Assembly: GCF_014203555.1 (NCBI RefSeq)
Contig: NZ_JACHJH010000004.1
Coordinates: 124,001 to 188,000, forward strand
Reading direction: 5' to 3'
Length of the DNA: 64,000 bases
Origin: Streptomyces olivoverticillatus
GTDB lineage: Bacteria; Actinomycetota; Actinomycetes; Streptomycetales; Streptomycetaceae
Part shown: positions 10,524-15,667 of the stretch, one piece after another
Layout: each line of letters starts with the position of its first letter
Numbering within the stretch: position 1 is the first letter of the stretch
Position numbers and translations under genes: made by a program
The notes under the pieces: generated by a model
What the model was told of the DNA's origin: nothing
Databases searched by the model: none
What the model saw: only the letters and a program-made list of their open reading frames with translations

Positions 10524-11210
10524 TCACTCCTCCTCGGAGGGCGGTTCCTCGTAGGGCGCTTCCTCGGCCAGCCGCTCGCCGATGTCGTCGGCCCACTCCT
10601 GGGCCCAGCGGCGCAGTCCGGCAATCTGGGTTTCGTCGAGCCCATAGTCGATGAACTCGCGGTCGTCCATCCATTCCGCTCCCTCCAGCCGTGCTCGGAG
10701 GTCCGCAAGGTCGAAGCCGCCCCACGCGTGCCGTTGCCCGTACTCCTCCAACTCGGTATGGGACCAACGCGCGGAGGCGGCATGGGCATCGATGAGATCT
10801 CGGGCTACACCCCGCTCGGCCAGGGCCACCATCTTCGCGGCGATGACATCCTCTACGGGCAGCACCGGACCGTACACGGTCTGCAAGGGCGCACCGCTCA
10901 TCGTCTGCTTGAGGATGTCGACCTCGCAGTCCTCGCAGGTGGCCGGGTCGGTCACCATGAAGCGAGCCGACAGCGCATCGAGTTCCAGCTGCGCGATGTG
11001 CCAGCCACGCGCTTCCAGCCCCGCTCGCAGGGACGAAGCGACGTCCGACAACTGCGCAGATGTGTCCGTAGCGACGTCCAGATCGCGGCTGACACGGTCA
11101 ACCAGGCCATGAGCTTGCACCGCATAGCCGCCGGTGAGCACGAGCGGATACGGAGTACCCACAGCGATCACGTCGGCAAGAAGCCGCCGATGCAACTCGG
11201 GGATCTTCAC
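10524..11210 (-). CDS. AbiEii-like nucleotidyltransferase (probable type IV toxin)
   Basis: The 228-residue protein carries the nucleotidyltransferase fold signature of AbiEii/AbiGii toxins: LTGGYAVQAHG (residues 25-35) followed by the acidic pair in SRDLDVAT (Asp43, Asp45). Later come a Lys and the 'RGVARDLIDAHA' helix that resembles the family's KDLYD motif. It ends in an acidic EEPPSEEE tail. The GTG start overlaps the TGA of the upstream small gene by four bases, so the pair is translationally coupled as in toxin-antitoxin operons. Known relatives cause abortive infection or growth arrest; here that is an inference from fold and gene order. Confidence 0.8.
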   Translation of the reverse strand: MKIPELHRRLLADVIAVGTPYPLVLTGGYAVQAHGLVDRVSRDLDVATDTSAQLSDVASSLRAGLEARGWHIAQLELDALSARFMVTDPATCEDCEVDILKQTMSGAPLQTVYGPVLPVEDVIAAKMVALAERGVARDLIDAHAASARWSHTELEEYGQRHAWGGFDLADLRARLEGAEWMDDREFIDYGLDETQIAGLRRWAQEWADDIGERLAEEAPYEEPPSEEE

Positions 11211-11557
11211 GCCGCCTTCTGCTTGCCGTGCGTGGAGAGCTCGGTGAAGGCGCCTTCCCAGACGTCCCGGATATCACGGCTGATCAGTGTCCGCAGCACC
11301 GGCCACAACATCACCAGCAGATCGCGGTTGAGGAACTGGATCAAATCATCGCGCTGTCCCTCGGCCATCACGATGCGGTACAGGCTCATTCGCAGCTTTG
11401 GATGGTCGAGGTCGAAACTGCACAGTCCCGACCAGCAGACGTGAAGCGGCAGATCGACAACGCCGTGGGCGGGGCCGTTGAGGTCCGCGAGAGAATCAGG
11501 GAGGCGTCGCGCAAACTTGGCGCGACGCAGCTCCCGATAGCTTGGCTCAGGCGACAT
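11207..11557 (-). CDS. Putative antitoxin/partner of the AbiEii-like protein
   Basis: This 116-residue protein (MSPEPSYRELRRAKFARRL...) has no recognisable domain. It lacks the winged-helix of classical AbiEi antitoxins but occupies the antitoxin position immediately upstream of, and overlapping, the nucleotidyltransferase gene. It is basic at the N terminus and amphipathic-helical elsewhere. An in-frame extension to 11662 exists, but its composition looks non-coding, so I start at the ATG at 11557. Calling it an antitoxin rests on gene order only. Confidence 0.6.
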   Translation of the reverse strand: MSPEPSYRELRRAKFARRLPDSLADLNGPAHGVVDLPLHVCWSGLCSFDLDHPKLRMSLYRIVMAEGQRDDLIQFLNRDLLVMLWPVLRTLISRDIRDVWEGAFTELSTHGKQKAA

Positions 11558-11588
11558 GCACCCGATTATTCCGCATGAGCCCCCAAAA

Positions 11589-12221
11589 TCAGTGCCCCGG
11601 CCATCCGTCCAGGTGACGGTGCACGGTGACCTCAGGCCGGGTCCCCTTGACTGTGGTAGCACCCGGCTTCGACAGCAGGGCCTTGACCTCCGCGGCCAGC
11701 GCGTCGGCCCGCTGCTTGAGCTGGGTGGCCGGGAGGCGGGAGGCGCCGAGGGCGTCCAGGCGGCGGTGGATGTCGTCGAGCTGCCGCTTGGTGTCCTGGG
11801 TGAGGGCGGCGGGGTGCGCGGTGGAGAGGACGAACTGGTAGGCGCCCGCCAGCGTCTGGCACCCGGTGCAGTGCTCGTTGACCGCGTGCCCCTCGTTCAC
11901 GGCGTTGAGGTGCACATGGTCGCCCGAGAGGGTCACGATCTGGAAGGACAGCGCCACCGAACGGCAGGCGTCGTCGGCGGTGCAGCCGACGGACTTGGCG
12001 TCGGCGTTGTTGCGCAGGCCGGCGCCCACGACGGTGCCGAACTGGTGGACGGTGAAGCTGTCGCGGTACTGGACGTGGTGCCGGTGGTCGGCGGTGGTGC
12101 GCACGCCGTCGCGGGCGACGACGACGGCCTCGGAGGCCTGGGCGGGGCCCGCGGTGGCGGCGGTGGCCACCCCGGCGGCCAGCAGGCCGATCCTCAGCAG
12201 ACAGCGGGACGTGGGGTTCAT
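11589..12221 (-). CDS. Secreted protein downstream of the peptide/M50 locus
   Basis: The 210-residue protein has a clear Sec signal peptide (hydrophobic stretch ending in AGPAQA-SEA, about residue 29). The mature domain contains a paired-Cys region (GCTADDAC) and a second pair (EHCTGC), followed by a predicted helical C-terminal third. No family name is recognised. It has a strong ribosome site (AGGAGG) and lies 163 bp downstream of the M50 gene in the same direction, so it may be the last gene of that transcription unit or have its own promoter. The cysteines suggest an extracellular disulfide-stabilised fold. Confidence 0.75.
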   Translation of the reverse strand: MNPTSRCLLRIGLLAAGVATAATAGPAQASEAVVVARDGVRTTADHRHHVQYRDSFTVHQFGTVVGAGLRNNADAKSVGCTADDACRSVALSFQIVTLSGDHVHLNAVNEGHAVNEHCTGCQTLAGAYQFVLSTAHPAALTQDTKRQLDDIHRRLDALGASRLPATQLKQRADALAAEVKALLSKPGATTVKGTRPEVTVHRHLDGWPGH

Positions 12222-12333
12222 GGGATTCCTCCTGTGAAATCTGTGACGGCTGTGAGCGCCGTAAGGCTGTGAATGCCGTAAAGGCGGTGAAGGGCCCGCG
12301 GTGGCGGCCGGTGCGCCGGCTCACCGCGAAGCG

Positions 12334-12365
12334 CGACGTGCGATCACTGACGACGTGCGATCACT
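12334..12365. repeat. 15-bp direct repeat upstream of the secreted-protein gene
   Basis: CGACGTGCGATCACT occurs at 12334-12348 and 12351-12365, two bases apart (period 17), just beyond the M50 stop codon. It could be a regulatory site for the secreted-protein gene or slippage debris. Confidence 0.5.
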
Positions 12366-12384
12366 TACACGGACAGGCTGGTGA

Positions 12385-14439
12385 TCACGGTGTCGGTTTG
12401 GCCGGCGGCAGGGTGGGCGCCGGGGAAGGCGGCGGCCCGGGGGCGGTCGCCGTGGGTGGGGGCGTGGAGGCCGCGGGCGGGGCGGGCGGCGAGGCGGGCG
12501 GCGCGGGCGTGGAGGCCGCGGGCGCCGGCTTGGAGGGCACGGCGGGCGGTACGGCCACGGGCGCGGGCACCGGGGCGGAGGGCTTGGGGGCCGCCGTGTG
12601 CCCGGCGCCGGGCGCCGTGGGCGCCGCGGTGGGTGCGGCGGAGGGCGGCGGGGAGGGCAGGCCGGGCTGGGCGGGCGGGGTGCGCCACGGCAGCGGCGTC
12701 GCGGCCGGGAGGGCGCCGTCGGGGACCGGGGAGCCCGGCTTGTGTCCTTGGGCCGGGTCGAGGCCGGGCAGCGCGGCGTGGTCCGGCACCTGGGGCGCCG
12801 GGTCCACGTTGGGCTGCAGGATCGGGGCGATCGGCGGCGCGGGCGGCAGCGGCTTGGGCGTGACGCCGCTGGTCCAGGCGAGCGCAAGGGTCGTCACCAC
12901 GCCGGTCACGGCCAGGACGAGCGCGATCCGCAGCCGCGGCCGCTCGGCCGTGGCCCGCAGGGCGTTGCGCCCGAGCCGACCGGTGAGCCGGATCGACAGG
13001 TACGTCATGCCCGCCAGCGGGAAGATCAGCATCATGCTGCCGAGCACACCGGCGAGCCCGCTGGCCACCGCTCCGTCGGCGAACGCCTCGTAGGTGCCGG
13101 CGAGTTGCCCGGTGAGCGAGCGGATGCCGGTGGCGACCAGGCGGGGCAGGTTCCACAGCGCGTAGCAGAGGTCGCCGACGAGCAGCGGGACCATGGTCAG
13201 CACCCAGGTGGTGACGATGACCCGCGTGGAGCGCTTGAGGTCGGCGACCGCGGGATCGGTGGGCCGCCAGGGCAGCATGGACAGCAGAATCGGTTTGATC
13301 TTGCCGTAGAGGTCCGGCACCCCGGCGAGGTCGCCGAGGATGAAGTAGCCGTCCAGGCGGACGGCGGGCATCAGCTGTTCGAGGACCTCGAAGTGGCCGA
13401 GGTAGACGGCGCTGAGCAGGAAGGGCTGTCCGGTGGCGAAGTAGGCGCCGGTCAGGAGCAGCATGAAGACGACGTTGAAGTAGACGCCGCCGAGGTCGGT
13501 GCGGATGCGGCCGGCGCGGCCGATCCGGTAGACGTCGGTGACGTCGGTGTACATGGACGGCCAGATCAGGAAGAGGCCGCAGCCGATGCAGCCGGGATGC
13601 GCCCCGCCGTATCTGCACGCCGAGGCGTGCCCGAACTCGTGGAAGACCAGCGAGGCCACGGTCAGCGCGAACACGGCGAGCAGCAGCAACGGCTGGTCCA
13701 GCACGTGCAGTACGGGCGTCATCGCGCCGTAGAAGCCGAACAGCCAGGTGTCCATGGCGACGGCGAGCAGCAGGACGAGCACCACGACCGCCGGCCGGTG
13801 CAGCCAGGCCAGCGAGCGCGCGATGACGGCCACCTTGCGCTCGTTGAAGACGACGCGGTGGCCCTTGAGGCTGAGCAGCAGGTCGGAGCGGGGTCCGTCG
13901 ACCTCGTCGTCCTCCTGCCCGTCGGGCACGGTGACGCCGAGCGGGTCGAGCTTGTGCTCCACCAGGTAGGCAACGTTCTCGGCGCTGACCTCGCGGCCGA
14001 ATCCGGCGCTGACCTCGCGGGCGACGGCGGCCATGTCGCGGACGCCGTCGATGGCGGACGCGGTCAGGTGGAGCAGCCGGGAGAGCTGCACCACCTGACC
14101 GTCGCCGCGCCGGGCGATGTACTTGGGCTCGGTGAACCCCGAGCCCTGGTACTCGCCGTGCAGCCGCAGTCCCGCGCTGAGCCGTGGGACGAGGGCCCCG
14201 GCGGGCTGTGACTGCGGTACGGGCTGCCGTACCACCGGCAGCTCCAGGGTCTCGGCATCCCCCTCCCCGTACATCTCCGGGAACGAGACGTACGGGAATC
14301 CGCCGGGCCCCGGCACCGGGGCGCCCGTGCCGCCCCCTGTCCGGACGTCTGGGTCCGCCCCGGTGCCGACCATGACGGTCGCGGTGTCGCCCCTGCGATG
14401 GCGGCTGCGGCCGGCCTCGTGGTCTCCGACCACCGTCAT
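12385..14439 (-). CDS. Membrane M50-type zinc metallopeptidase with PqqD-like domain
   Basis: The 684-residue protein has four parts. A low-complexity N-terminus (about 1-90) comes first. A domain of about 70 residues follows (about 100-170; VVQLSRLLHLTASAIDG... VAYLVEHKLDPLG) that resembles PqqD-like peptide-recognition domains. A multi-spanning membrane core carries the site-2-protease motif HEFGH (residues 267-271) and the second metal motif MPAVRLDGYF (357-366). A Pro/Ala-rich tail of about 170 residues closes it. It is predicted to cleave a peptide in or near the membrane. The gene sits directly downstream of two precursor-like peptide genes in the same direction, and a strong GGGGAGGA ribosome site precedes the ATG. 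The HEXXH and LDG motifs are intact. Confidence 0.85.
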   Translation of the reverse strand: MTVVGDHEAGRSRHRRGDTATVMVGTGADPDVRTGGGTGAPVPGPGGFPYVSFPEMYGEGDAETLELPVVRQPVPQSQPAGALVPRLSAGLRLHGEYQGSGFTEPKYIARRGDGQVVQLSRLLHLTASAIDGVRDMAAVAREVSAGFGREVSAENVAYLVEHKLDPLGVTVPDGQEDDEVDGPRSDLLLSLKGHRVVFNERKVAVIARSLAWLHRPAVVVLVLLLAVAMDTWLFGFYGAMTPVLHVLDQPLLLLAVFALTVASLVFHEFGHASACRYGGAHPGCIGCGLFLIWPSMYTDVTDVYRIGRAGRIRTDLGGVYFNVVFMLLLTGAYFATGQPFLLSAVYLGHFEVLEQLMPAVRLDGYFILGDLAGVPDLYGKIKPILLSMLPWRPTDPAVADLKRSTRVIVTTWVLTMVPLLVGDLCYALWNLPRLVATGIRSLTGQLAGTYEAFADGAVASGLAGVLGSMMLIFPLAGMTYLSIRLTGRLGRNALRATAERPRLRIALVLAVTGVVTTLALAWTSGVTPKPLPPAPPIAPILQPNVDPAPQVPDHAALPGLDPAQGHKPGSPVPDGALPAATPLPWRTPPAQPGLPSPPPSAAPTAAPTAPGAGHTAAPKPSAPVPAPVAVPPAVPSKPAPAASTPAPPASPPAPPAASTPPPTATAPGPPPSPAPTLPPAKPTP

Positions 14440-14480
14440 CTGCTTCCTCCCCCTCGGCGAACCGTCCCCTGTTTCCCCCC

Positions 14481-14519
14481 TCGGCGGACCGCGCCCTTCC
14501 CCCTGGCCCGGTCCGCCGA
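14481..14519 (-). terminator. Hairpin between peptide 1 and the M50 gene (possible attenuator)
   Basis: Ten-base arms TCGGCGGACC and GGTCCGCCGA enclose a 19-base loop between the second peptide gene and the metallopeptidase. Partial terminators at this place are common in peptide operons, where they keep precursor transcripts in excess over processing enzymes. Confidence 0.5.
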
Positions 14520-14563
14520 CCGCGTGGGCCGTGCTGTGACGCCCCCTGCCGGGCGCCGGGGTG

Positions 14564-14782
14564 TTACTGCTTGATGCTGATCGCCTGGGTGGCCTCGGAC
14601 TGCGCGACGGCGAAGGGGGAGTCGGTGTTGGCGGCCAGCGACTCGTTGTGGGCGGAGACGTGGGCGACGTGCTTGGTGACGTTCGTCGTCCGGGTGAAGC
14701 TGAACTTCAGCTTCCCCAGCGCCTCGCGACCGGGCAGCAGCTCGGCGGACTCGGCTTCGAGCTCGTTCGGGTTCATGCTCAT
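14564..14782 (-). CDS. Precursor-like peptide 1 (72 aa)
   Basis: This small acidic-then-basic peptide begins MSMNPNELEAESAELLPGRE. Its first two thirds are nearly identical to peptide 2, including ELLPGREALG and KLKFSFTRTT. The C-terminal 24 residues diverge and alternate small or aliphatic with polar residues (SPFAVAQSEATQAISIKQ), ending in Gln. A conserved leader plus variable tail, tandem duplication and an adjacent M50/PqqD-like protein suggest a ribosomally made, processed peptide. It contains no Cys and few Ser/Thr for lanthionine chemistry. An AAAGG ribosome site lies seven bases before the ATG. Confidence 0.8.
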   Translation of the reverse strand: MSMNPNELEAESAELLPGREALGKLKFSFTRTTNVTKHVAHVSAHNESLAANTDSPFAVAQSEATQAISIKQ

Positions 14783-14819
14783 GGCAGTGCCTTTCAACTC
14801 GGCGGAACGGAAGAGACGG

Positions 14820-14839
14820 GGCGCGGCGAGTGCCGCGCC
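14820..14839 (-). terminator. Hairpin between the two peptide genes
   Basis: GGCGCGGC and GCCGCGCC (8 bp, four-base loop GAGT) lie between the stop of peptide 2 and the start of peptide 1. It may modulate read-through or stabilise the 5' transcript; it is short and GC-only. Confidence 0.4.
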
Positions 14840-14850
14840 GCGAGGGCTGG

Positions 14851-15066
14851 TTACTGCTGGATGGCGATCGACTGGGAGGCCTGCGACTGCGCGACGGCCT
14901 CCGGCGAGCAGATGTTGGCCGCGGCCGACTCGTTGTGGGCGGAGACGTGGGCGACATGCTTGGTGACGTTCGTCGTCCGGGTGAAGCTGAACTTCAGCTT
15001 CCCCAGCGCCTCGCGGCCGGGCAGCAGTTCGGCGGACTCGGCCTCGAGCTCGTTGACGTCGAGCAT
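14851..15066 (-). CDS. Precursor-like peptide 2 (71 aa)
   Basis: This paralog of the downstream peptide is the first gene of the unit. The stretch from NELEAESAELLPGREALG through VAHVSAHNES is identical between the two. The tail differs (AAANICSPEAVAQSQASQ, then SIAIQQ) and contains a single Cys. A strong GGAGGGGG ribosome site precedes the ATG. The near-identical leader and faster-changing tail fit a leader/core peptide organisation. Confidence 0.8.
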   Translation of the reverse strand: MLDVNELEAESAELLPGREALGKLKFSFTRTTNVTKHVAHVSAHNESAAANICSPEAVAQSQASQSIAIQQ

Positions 15067-15135
15067 GGTGGTTCCCCCTCCGGGAAGGTGGTGCACGGTG
15101 TGCGCATTCGGGTACGGGCAGGACCCCCCGGCCCG

Positions 15136-15176
15136 CGTCCGATGCGGTCGGACGAGCTGTCCAACGAGATTGGACA
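15136..15176. promoter_or_regulatory. Two tandem inverted repeats, probable XRE operators
   Basis: CGTCCGA-N5-TCGGACG (15136-15154) and TGTCCAA-N5-TTGGACA (15158-15176) are both perfect seven-base inverted repeats with the same five-base spacer. Their centres are 22 bp apart, about two helical turns. They lie in the 217-bp divergent region between the XRE regulator and the peptide genes, about 70 bp upstream of the peptide start. A dimeric HTH protein binding side by side on one face of the DNA is the natural reading. Confidence 0.75.
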
Positions 15177-15283
15177 CTAGCGGCGTTCGTCGGCACCGCG
15201 CAAGCGGTTCGGTCCACCGCCCGCCGTAGAATCGTTTCCACCCGAGCAGGCCCGAGCCAGCCGAGAGCAGGAAGCGACCGTCA

Positions 15284-15667
15284 GTGGCCAACGCACTGCA
15301 GCAGATCATGAGACAGCGACTGGACCGGCAGGGGTGGTCCTACGGGGACGTCGCTCGCAGAGGCGGCATCCCCCGCTCGACCGTGCACCACCTGGCCACC
15401 ACGGACCGCCTGGTGCGCATGCCCCAGCCCGGCACGCTCGAAGGGCTGGCCAAGGGCCTGGAGCTGCCGCTGGACACCGTGCGCCGGGCCGCGGCCGAGG
15501 CCTGCGGGATCCACCTCTACCCGGCGGCCGAGGAAGCGCCCGAGAGCCACCCCGATCCGGAGGTGGACCTGCTGATCGCCAGTGTGCAGCGGCTCTCCGC
15601 GGACGACCGCAGGCATGTGGCCGCCCTGGTCGAATCCCTGCTCGAACGAGGCCCGAAAGCCGAATGA
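15284..15667 (+). CDS. XRE-family regulator divergent from the peptide genes
   Basis: The 127-residue protein has an N-terminal HTH (WSYGDVARRGGIPRSTVHHL) and a short helical C-terminal part for dimerisation. The GTG at 15284 has an AGGAAG ribosome site. Its divergent position across two matching inverted repeats marks it as the likely regulator of the peptide/M50 unit. Confidence 0.88.
   Translation: MANALQQIMRQRLDRQGWSYGDVARRGGIPRSTVHHLATTDRLVRMPQPGTLEGLAKGLELPLDTVRRAAAEACGIHLYPAAEEAPESHPDPEVDLLIASVQRLSADDRRHVAALVESLLERGPKAE

Follow-up and report, generated by a model that had tools for sequence, protein, structure and literature searches.

A conserved cassette that joins short leader-bearing peptides, an intramembrane protease and a secreted protein related to the peptides' tails lies between positions 11,589 and 15,667 of the Streptomyces olivoverticillatus DNA analysed here (64,000 nucleotides of contig NZ_JACHJH010000004.1, hereafter the window). 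The minus-strand genes follow in the order peptide 1, peptide 2, M50 metallopeptidase and secreted protein, and an XRE-family regulator gene is divergent from them (Table 1). Linkage and conservation of this gene set are well supported. Largely by analogy with known peptide-processing proteases, we propose that the M50 protein, through a fused domain resembling RiPP recognition elements (RRE; RiPP, ribosomally synthesised and post-translationally modified peptide), binds the leader, cuts it and releases the tail, which would then assemble homotypically with the secreted partner outside the cell; we give this mechanism an even chance of being right. All parts reported in the first-pass annotation (tandem peptides of 71 and 72 residues, M50 with HEFGH and LDGY motifs, secreted protein and XRE gene) are in place. 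What it had missed is the kinship of the secreted protein, which holds two copies of the motif, with the peptide tails.

The genome of origin is a 5.5-Mb assembly of 16 contigs, and among named genomes its nearest relatives are Streptomyces. A search of 100 genomes detected the peptide in 10, this one included, belonging to three genera. A pattern search of an 84,980-genome collection gave 200 matches and 95 confirmed stretches, the best 80 of which were kept and correspond to 79 named loci. Spurious open reading frames (ORFs) are therefore rejected: the genes are real because they are conserved across both sets. Counting only assessable loci, i.e., those where the contig reaches far enough, the M50 gene lies within 2 kb downstream of the peptide in 74/76, the secreted gene within 5.5 kb downstream in 65/66, a gene for a protein of about 88 residues within 4.5 kb upstream in 73/76 and the divergent XRE gene within 1.5 kb in 58/78. 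At least two peptide genes occur in 65 of the 79 named loci, in line with the initial description of tandem precursors. Two loci from one genome (L083 and L084) resemble copies of one locus. Extra peptide copies apart from any M50 gene were seen in L019, L021 and L023, the genomes of which hold a fuller cassette elsewhere. On an annotated Streptomyces plasmid, 'hypothetical protein' is the label of all three genes: that of the peptide and the next two (M50 and secreted protein by position and length).

The same association extends well beyond these relatives. Among 394 genomes of the class, 40 contained the peptide (E up to 0.001), 58 the M50 protein (E up to 1e-40) and 34 the secreted domain. 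Peptide and M50 occurred together in 39 of the 40 peptide-positive genomes, and in the remaining one (G157) the peptide match lies less than 900 bases from a contig start; M50 was present in all 34 genomes with the secreted domain, and 33 genomes had both peptide and secreted domain. Of the 40 peptide matches, those in G205 and G280 are marginal (E 5e-4 and 1e-3), and since the genomes are mutually related, the tiny Fisher p-values of these co-occurrences are not independent evidence. The first-pass annotation had proposed such a co-occurrence search and reasoned that peptides occurring widely without an M50 gene would speak against a common system; an adjacent M50 gene is missing in only two of the 76 assessable loci. 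A broader profile of the secreted protein matched 16 of 396 phylum genomes from 15 genera, 11 of the 16 outside the class. We examined 32 distant places, 20 of them taken from the class search and 12 from that of the phylum. In 27 there are peptides whose leader is LPDREAM- or LPDKEV-like and whose tail has the shared motif, and the M50 model also matched in 26. Three of the five loci without peptides are cut at a contig end (L141, L153 and L173) and two lack them (L135 and L175). The distant peptides are encoded by three or four genes of roughly 70–95 residues, or by one longer gene with two motif hits (236 residues in L138, 502 in L143). M50 and the Cys-pair domain of the secreted protein share one reading frame in 10 of the 20 class loci (L134, L136, L137, L138, L143 and L145–L149). 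Beside the fused M50 of L136, L138, L143 and L145 stands a longer precursor, with two motif copies split by low-complexity linkers.

Peptide conservation was assessed in 60 of 76 non-redundant rows, derived from 137 distinct peptides. Leader residues 12–21 (AELLPGREAL) are invariant in all 60 and a separate tail follows. The peptides thus have the short length, conserved leader and separate core of RiPP precursors, though the tail is not hypervariable. Every second tail residue is nearly fixed, with a mean entropy of 0.13 bits at residues 39, 41 … 51 and 0.32 bits at 57, 59 … 71; residues in between average 1.99 and 2.41 bits. The two tails had been described as diverging and as ending in Gln: the last residue is Gln in 60/60 peptides, but the divergence is confined to alternate positions. 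The constrained face is rich in Ala, Asn, Ser and Gln. Such alternation fits two β-strands with one fixed face and is compatible with stacked β-arches, without proving them. No family in Pfam, NCBIfam, PADLOC or PDB sequences matched the peptides, with scattered weak hits only. The idea of the tail as a variable RiPP core is not supported, as one face is near-invariant (0.1–0.3 bits) and akin to motifs in the secreted protein; together these two properties suggest a structural or assembly role rather than that of a modified natural product.

The kinship itself is seen most directly in the second motif copy of the secreted protein, which aligns without gaps to 29 tail residues. The peptide pattern V-x-A-x-N-x-S-x-A-x-N-x-x-S-x-x-[AS] corresponds to L-x-A-x-N-x-G-x-A-x-N-x-x-C-x-x-C in the partner, where Cys-x-x-Cys occupies the place of Ser-x-x-Ser/Ala. 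With the whole profiles aligned without gaps, the best register outscored 1000 of 1000 shuffles in the Streptomyces set and likewise in the class set, also when the shuffles preserved the alternation, and the tail-alone register outscored 1000/1000 and 999/1000. The class-wide peptide profile also matches the motif repeat in seven Cys-pair domains at 13–18 bits (L136, L145, L146, L149, L175, L176 and L180). Comparing 124 Streptomyces-type and 45 distant peptide motifs with 45 and 28 partner motifs, respectively, we obtained partner–peptide scores of 22.6 and 23.9 within a lineage vs 14.6 and 7.8 across lineages; controls in which the anchors were kept and the rest was shuffled gave 2.6 and 6.7. 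Pro stands at the third motif position in 45/45 peptides and 28/28 partners of the distant set and in 0/124 and 0/45 of the Streptomyces type; the motif pattern used for this comparison admits only Ala or Pro at this marker position. The contrast between the lineages may go back to a single change in the phylogeny. The partner model (45 sequences; predicted local distance difference test score (pLDDT) 91.4, predicted template modelling score (pTM) 0.87) places strands at residues 104–115 and 122–134, the two motif halves. The four Cys residues noted earlier are confirmed, all after the signal peptide (read by eye). No Pfam family reached its cut-off for the partner, and comparison of the Cys-pair domain with NCBIfam and PDB sequences likewise gave scattered weak hits only. 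When the weak fold matches were re-aligned, the best row was a SufBCD chain (Z 4.0), and a CsgA fibril reached Z 2.6. Among the weak matches are many that we take to be β-solenoids (SufB/D, ice-binding proteins, serine acetyltransferase, bactofilin and CsgA).

The M50 protein keeps HExGH in 98/98 aligned homologue rows. The second motif reads LDGY, FDGY or ADGY in all listed rows except one cut by its contig, and is invariant in a set of 38 sequences. With an HExxH motif, an Asp-bearing DG motif and many long helices in its predicted model, the protein has the features of a multi-spanning, site-2-type M50 peptidase. Its only match among PDB sequences was the MJ0392 metalloprotease (E 8.3). The resemblance of the N-terminal domain to PqqD, initially seen by eye, holds at the level of fold, and the region 95–175, for which a non-RRE fold had been considered a point of refutation, scores as an RRE fold. 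Modelled from 38 sequences, the domain has the order EEE-HHH, with a pLDDT of 83–90 in the helices and first strand and 53–74 over its residues 11–40. Foldseek ranked lasso-peptide RREs first and second (probability 0.92 and 0.82). On re-alignment to 270 PDB chains the top match was the leader-bound lasso RRE 6jx3 (Z 7.5 over 80 residues, 21% identity), followed by the leader-bound lasso RREs 5v1v and 5v1u (Z 7.2), a sactipeptide entry (5wgg, Z 6.7) and a heterocyclase entry (4v1v, Z 6.0). The model is thus a three-strand, three-helix winged helix like known RREs, with the caveat that all Z values are below 8. When 12 such N-domains were scanned alone, six matched NCBIfam RiPP_bind_ApyI (best 5.6e-5) and two matched Pfam PqqD (best 0.0063).

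Related proteases are found with other peptides. Peptides of the kind described above (type A) were not found in 19 of the 58 M50-bearing class genomes, and the only one of these 19 matched by the Cys-pair profile was G181, which is fragmentary. We examined 20 further M50 places, 16 of which (L184–L199) do not belong to the type described above. Searched with a profile built from just the type-A leader, 17 of the 20 had matching short ORFs (E up to 0.06), the exceptions being L184–L186. In L188–L199, from actinobacteria of one family, the leader ELLP[DE]R mostly precedes another tail (PVNSPGSNN ... NQW), rich in Asn, Ser, Ile and Gln. Outside the window, a different contig of the genome of origin carries another RRE-M50 locus (L184, 6015–8398), with two upstream peptides bearing the leader VLPERTVM or VLPARTVL and, by eye, a Cys-bearing tail; similar sets occur in L185, L186 and L187. 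Judging from these sequences, the pair of leader and RRE-M50 serves at least three kinds of tail.

In the mechanism that we favour, the leader motif AELLPGREAL would be bound in the cytoplasm by the RRE/PqqD-like domain, as we infer from gene linkage and leader conservation. The M50 moiety, a site-2-type intramembrane peptidase, would sever leader from tail at a presumed site between them and hand the tail outward, no modifying enzyme being required; binding, cutting and release are postulated by analogy with daptide MpaP and with EpeP. Each tail would form one β-arch (strand 39–51, turn, strand 57–71). Released arches would stack outside the cell on the secreted protein, whose two arches of the same type would be held by Cys pairs and which might act as template, cap or anchor for a predicted β-solenoid or fibril. 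In distant genera the template would be fused to the protease. The XRE regulator on its double operator would control the operon. It is the combination of a β-arch tail with its relative in a secreted or protease-fused partner that suggests homotypic assembly outside the cell. Taken most literally, this would be a phylum-wide actinobacterial route in which an RRE-tagged site-2 protease frees unmodified one-rung arches that polymerise on a cysteine-stapled multi-rung template, secreted or protease-fused, and loci with the same leader and other tails would be sister routes for other building blocks. This stronger version we hold only tentatively, as possible but on the doubtful side.

A number of observations weigh against RRE-guided export and assembly. 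Peptides without a nearby M50 gene do exist (L085 and L101). HH-suite finds the same peptide–partner register at low probability (14% and 9%, E 0.002–0.004); the second strand of the partner, with both faces conserved (0.29 vs 0.40 bits), is therefore not purely ladder-like; and Foldseek gave no significant match for the partner, which need not mean a new fold, the weak solenoid hits lying mostly at a root mean square deviation of 14–20 Å. On the protease side, the M50 model is poor overall (mean pLDDT 71, pTM 0.51). The best Pfam match of any N-domain was to another winged helix (PKMT_2nd, 0.002, two of 12), the window's own N-domain scanned alone matched no Pfam or NCBIfam model, and the N-domain profile gave 14 hits up to E 10 among PDB sequences with no RRE, a miss when set beside the structural result. 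Foldseek E-values of the top RRE matches are not significant (0.5 and 0.8), and Z values below 8 are, according to the tool, in the range of common arrangements; part of GdmN reaches 6.8. Finally, FAD (flavin adenine dinucleotide) monooxygenase-type, MacB-like permease and ATP-binding cassette (ABC) ATPase genes do recur around the cassette in some loci.

We surveyed the neighbourhood in 56 loci of at least 20 kb with a simple gene finder that misses some genes, and found 24 gene clusters recurring in at least eight loci. The cassette leads this list (M50 in 54, XRE in 50, peptide in 46, the 88-residue protein in 36 and the secreted gene in 32), and beyond it no cluster recurs in more than 25 of the 56 loci. 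A Pfam scan of ten recurring neighbours identified Bax-inhibitor-like (25 loci), thiolase (25), disulphide-type oxidoreductase (23), MacB-like permease (23), GDSL lipase (23), CMAS-type methyltransferase (21), FAD monooxygenase-type (17), ABC ATPase (17) and short-chain dehydrogenase (8) genes and one without match (24). The permease and ATPase genes lie about 3–5 kb upstream of the peptides, beyond the XRE gene, in part of the loci L025–L103. We read such outside genes as a neighbourhood common to related species; the permease and ATPase are possibly an exporter, and the FAD enzyme may have a role too.

An exporter would suit a secreted bioactive peptide, antimicrobial or signalling, matured and exported by the RRE-M50 protein, perhaps with a transporter, with the partner mimicking the motif in order to trap it as immunity factor, carrier or receptor. 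The gene linkage would be the same under this explanation, the other tail types beside related RRE-M50 genes resemble a diversified product set, and bacteriocin loci often hold tandem paralogues. Yet the constrained tail face hardly varies, unlike what is expected of peptides in an arms race; the ABC genes are present in under half of the loci and are set apart from the peptides by the distance given above; and the fusion of partner and protease fits assembly better than immunity. We consider a trapped bioactive peptide unlikely.

A classical RiPP, in which an enzyme encoded at the edge of some loci or elsewhere in the genome modifies the tail before M50 cuts it, as in daptides and epipeptides, appears quite improbable. 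In its favour, daptide clusters were found and are defined through RRE-fused site-2 proteases accompanied by several short ORFs, and MpaP is held to remove their leader, according to the available text of PMC10036551. Our M50 protein is related to the daptide protease (daptide_HExxH, NF041824; 77.4 bits over residues 106–377), and the FAD monooxygenase-type gene lies about 3.4 kb downstream and the CMAS-type methyltransferase gene about 6.7 kb upstream in the loci that have them. Against it, the 77.4 bits fall far short of the equivalog cut-off of 300, as do the 37.2 bits with RiPP_HExxH_LiaK (NF058609) of the cut-off of 225; the C-terminal residue is Gln throughout, not an invariant Thr; and apart from M50 no enzyme gene is found in more than 25 of the 56 loci. 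The recurring enzymes (thiolase, CMAS type and FAD type) stand outside the cassette, so that a conserved modifying enzyme beside the precursors is lacking among the recurring clusters, which were surveyed without a dedicated profile search. The earlier statement that no cyclodehydratase, radical-SAM or LanM gene is present agrees with the recurring neighbours, to the extent that clustering and a single Pfam scan can tell.

Membership in the daptide and epipeptide families was rejected on the grounds just given. Daptide systems (MpaP and MpaA) share with ours an N-terminal RRE on an intramembrane protease, several short precursors and a short Pro-bearing leader motif, but in the parts of PMC10036551 at hand the daptide leader reads ELExMEAP, in contrast to ELLPGREAL here, and the C-terminus is Thr. 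No daptide modifying genes are among the recurring neighbours here, and the motif-sharing partner is an addition. EpeP, with YydH and LiaK, resembles our protease as an intramembrane M50 enzyme that processes a short peptide and is thought, in the accessible portion of PMC10885120, to export the epipeptide as well. The epipeptide identity (YydF/EpeX) fails at the cut-off given above; unlike those systems, the loci studied here show no radical-SAM gene among their recurring neighbours, and the tail is conserved. The pearlin proteases TglG and TmoG are likewise membrane M50 proteins acting on ribosomal scaffold peptides, but free single modified C-terminal amino acids, as far as the same partial source states (PMC10885120). 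A pearlin identity was rejected, as no peptide aminoacyl-tRNA ligase is among the recurring neighbours, a judgement made from the neighbour list with no dedicated search.

The regulator region was as described initially, with matching operators by the divergent XRE gene. Two inverted repeats start 22 bp apart, at 15,137 and 15,159, in the gap between the XRE and peptide genes. Inverted repeats occur in 59 of 63 distinct gaps of this kind, and 58 of the gaps hold at least two; the sequence GTCCAATCTCGTTGGAC of the first site, or its complement, was counted 58 times in the 63 gaps, and the four gaps without repeats are in L020, L021 and L023. The operator pattern occurs 145 times in total in 1.9 Mb of loci, these gaps included. 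Apart from one weak HEAT match (E 0.065), the Pfam hits of the XRE protein are of DNA-binding types. A peptide pheromone system of the RRNPP type was rejected, as the protein has just 127 residues and, on reading that list, no tetratricopeptide repeats. Very improbable, too, is regulatory proteolysis, in which the peptides would be substrates or sensors of a site-2 protease pathway controlling XRE instead of giving rise to an exported product. Regulated intramembrane proteolysis is what M50 proteins are best known for, and the divergent XRE gene has a conserved double operator. Yet 20 of 78 assessable loci lack an adjacent XRE gene, the XRE model has no hit in the 20 class loci L134–L153, and the peptides have, by eye, no transmembrane segment.

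Table 1 Features of the cassette in the window
Feature	Positions	Strand	Remarks
Precursor peptide 1, 71 residues	14851-15066	-	leader ELEAESAELLPGREALG; tail residues 39-71 = DNA 14854-14952
Precursor peptide 2, 72 residues	14564-14782	-	leader as in peptide 1; tail residues 40-72 = DNA 14567-14665
RRE-fused M50 (site-2-type) membrane metallopeptidase, 684 residues	12385-14439	-	Pro-rich C-terminal tail
Predicted PqqD/RRE-like winged-helix domain of M50, residues 85-174	13918-14187	-	E-E-E-H-H-H; from sequence, homologues, model and PDB matches 6jx3, 5v1v, 5v1u, 5wgg, 4v1v
HEFGH zinc-binding motif of M50, residues 267-271	13627-13641	-	
LDGY motif of M50, residues 362-365	13345-13356	-	
Secreted partner protein, 210 residues	11589-12221	-	signal peptide, β-strand repeats with two Cys pairs, helical hairpin
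Predicted β-arch repeat 1 of secreted protein	11925-12026	-	strands at residues 66-77 and 87-99
Predicted β-arch repeat 2 of secreted protein	11820-11912	-	strands at residues 104-115 and 122-134; gapless match to peptide tail
Operator 2	15137-15153	.	inverted repeat GTCCGATGCGGTCGGAC
Operator 1	15159-15175	.	inverted repeat GTCCAACGAGATTGGAC
Divergent XRE-family regulator, 127 residues	15284-15667	+	Pfam HTH_3, HTH_31
Conserved small protein, about 88 residues	15822-16088	+	no Pfam match; motif GESVVLLSGELP

The gene for the small protein of about 88 residues sits just beyond the range covered by the first-pass annotation and was overlooked there; two copies of it are present in some loci (L033, L035, L036, L040, L042, L054 and L056). 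On the other side, the cassette adjoins a gene for an AbiEii-type nucleotidyltransferase (10,524–11,210, minus strand; PF08843, E 4.8e-12), overlapped by a gene without Pfam match (11,207–11,662, minus strand). The two form a candidate toxin–antitoxin pair, and in L013, too, a protein with a similar start adjoins the cassette.

A defence system was rejected, since PADLOC returned nothing up to E 0.1 for the peptides, M50, partner and 88-residue protein, and two weak hits (mad1 and capH) for XRE. A phage or mobile origin was rejected as well: none of 98 pattern matches in viral_contigs, obtained with one peptide as query, is a relative, one plasmid record matched, and the window has no tRNA. 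A literature search that included peptide sequence strings, and to which subscription papers were mostly out of reach, found no description of the system.

Curli are a functional amyloid in which the subunit CsgA is accompanied by the nucleator CsgB. The likeness would be one of working only: a β-arch subunit whose conserved face displays Asn, Gln, Ser and Ala, accompanied by another secreted protein that has related repeats. No sequence relation is shown, the RRE-M50 delivery and the Cys pairs of the partner are features of the present system, and its fibres are hypothetical. Chaplins and rodlins are also secreted Streptomyces proteins tied to surface amyloid, according to the available text of PMC3079736 and PMC5314377. 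Unlike these, the peptides and partner described here reach no Pfam family cut-off, and the system extends to 11 genomes outside the class.

In the natural-product pathways from which RREs and their fusions to site-2 proteases are known, the peptides handled are modified. The present system seems to use this front end for a conserved motif, without a conserved modifying enzyme, and a relative of that motif is secreted, or fused to the protease, next door. Genome miners may take this as a warning not to equate an RRE beside short ORFs automatically with a modified natural product. If the proposed mechanism is true, it would provide a function for gene families named 'hypothetical protein' in the one annotated record examined, and would add a delivery route for extracellular β-structured polymers in Gram-positive bacteria; were its literal polymer version true, RiPP-style leader recognition would have been put to structural use.

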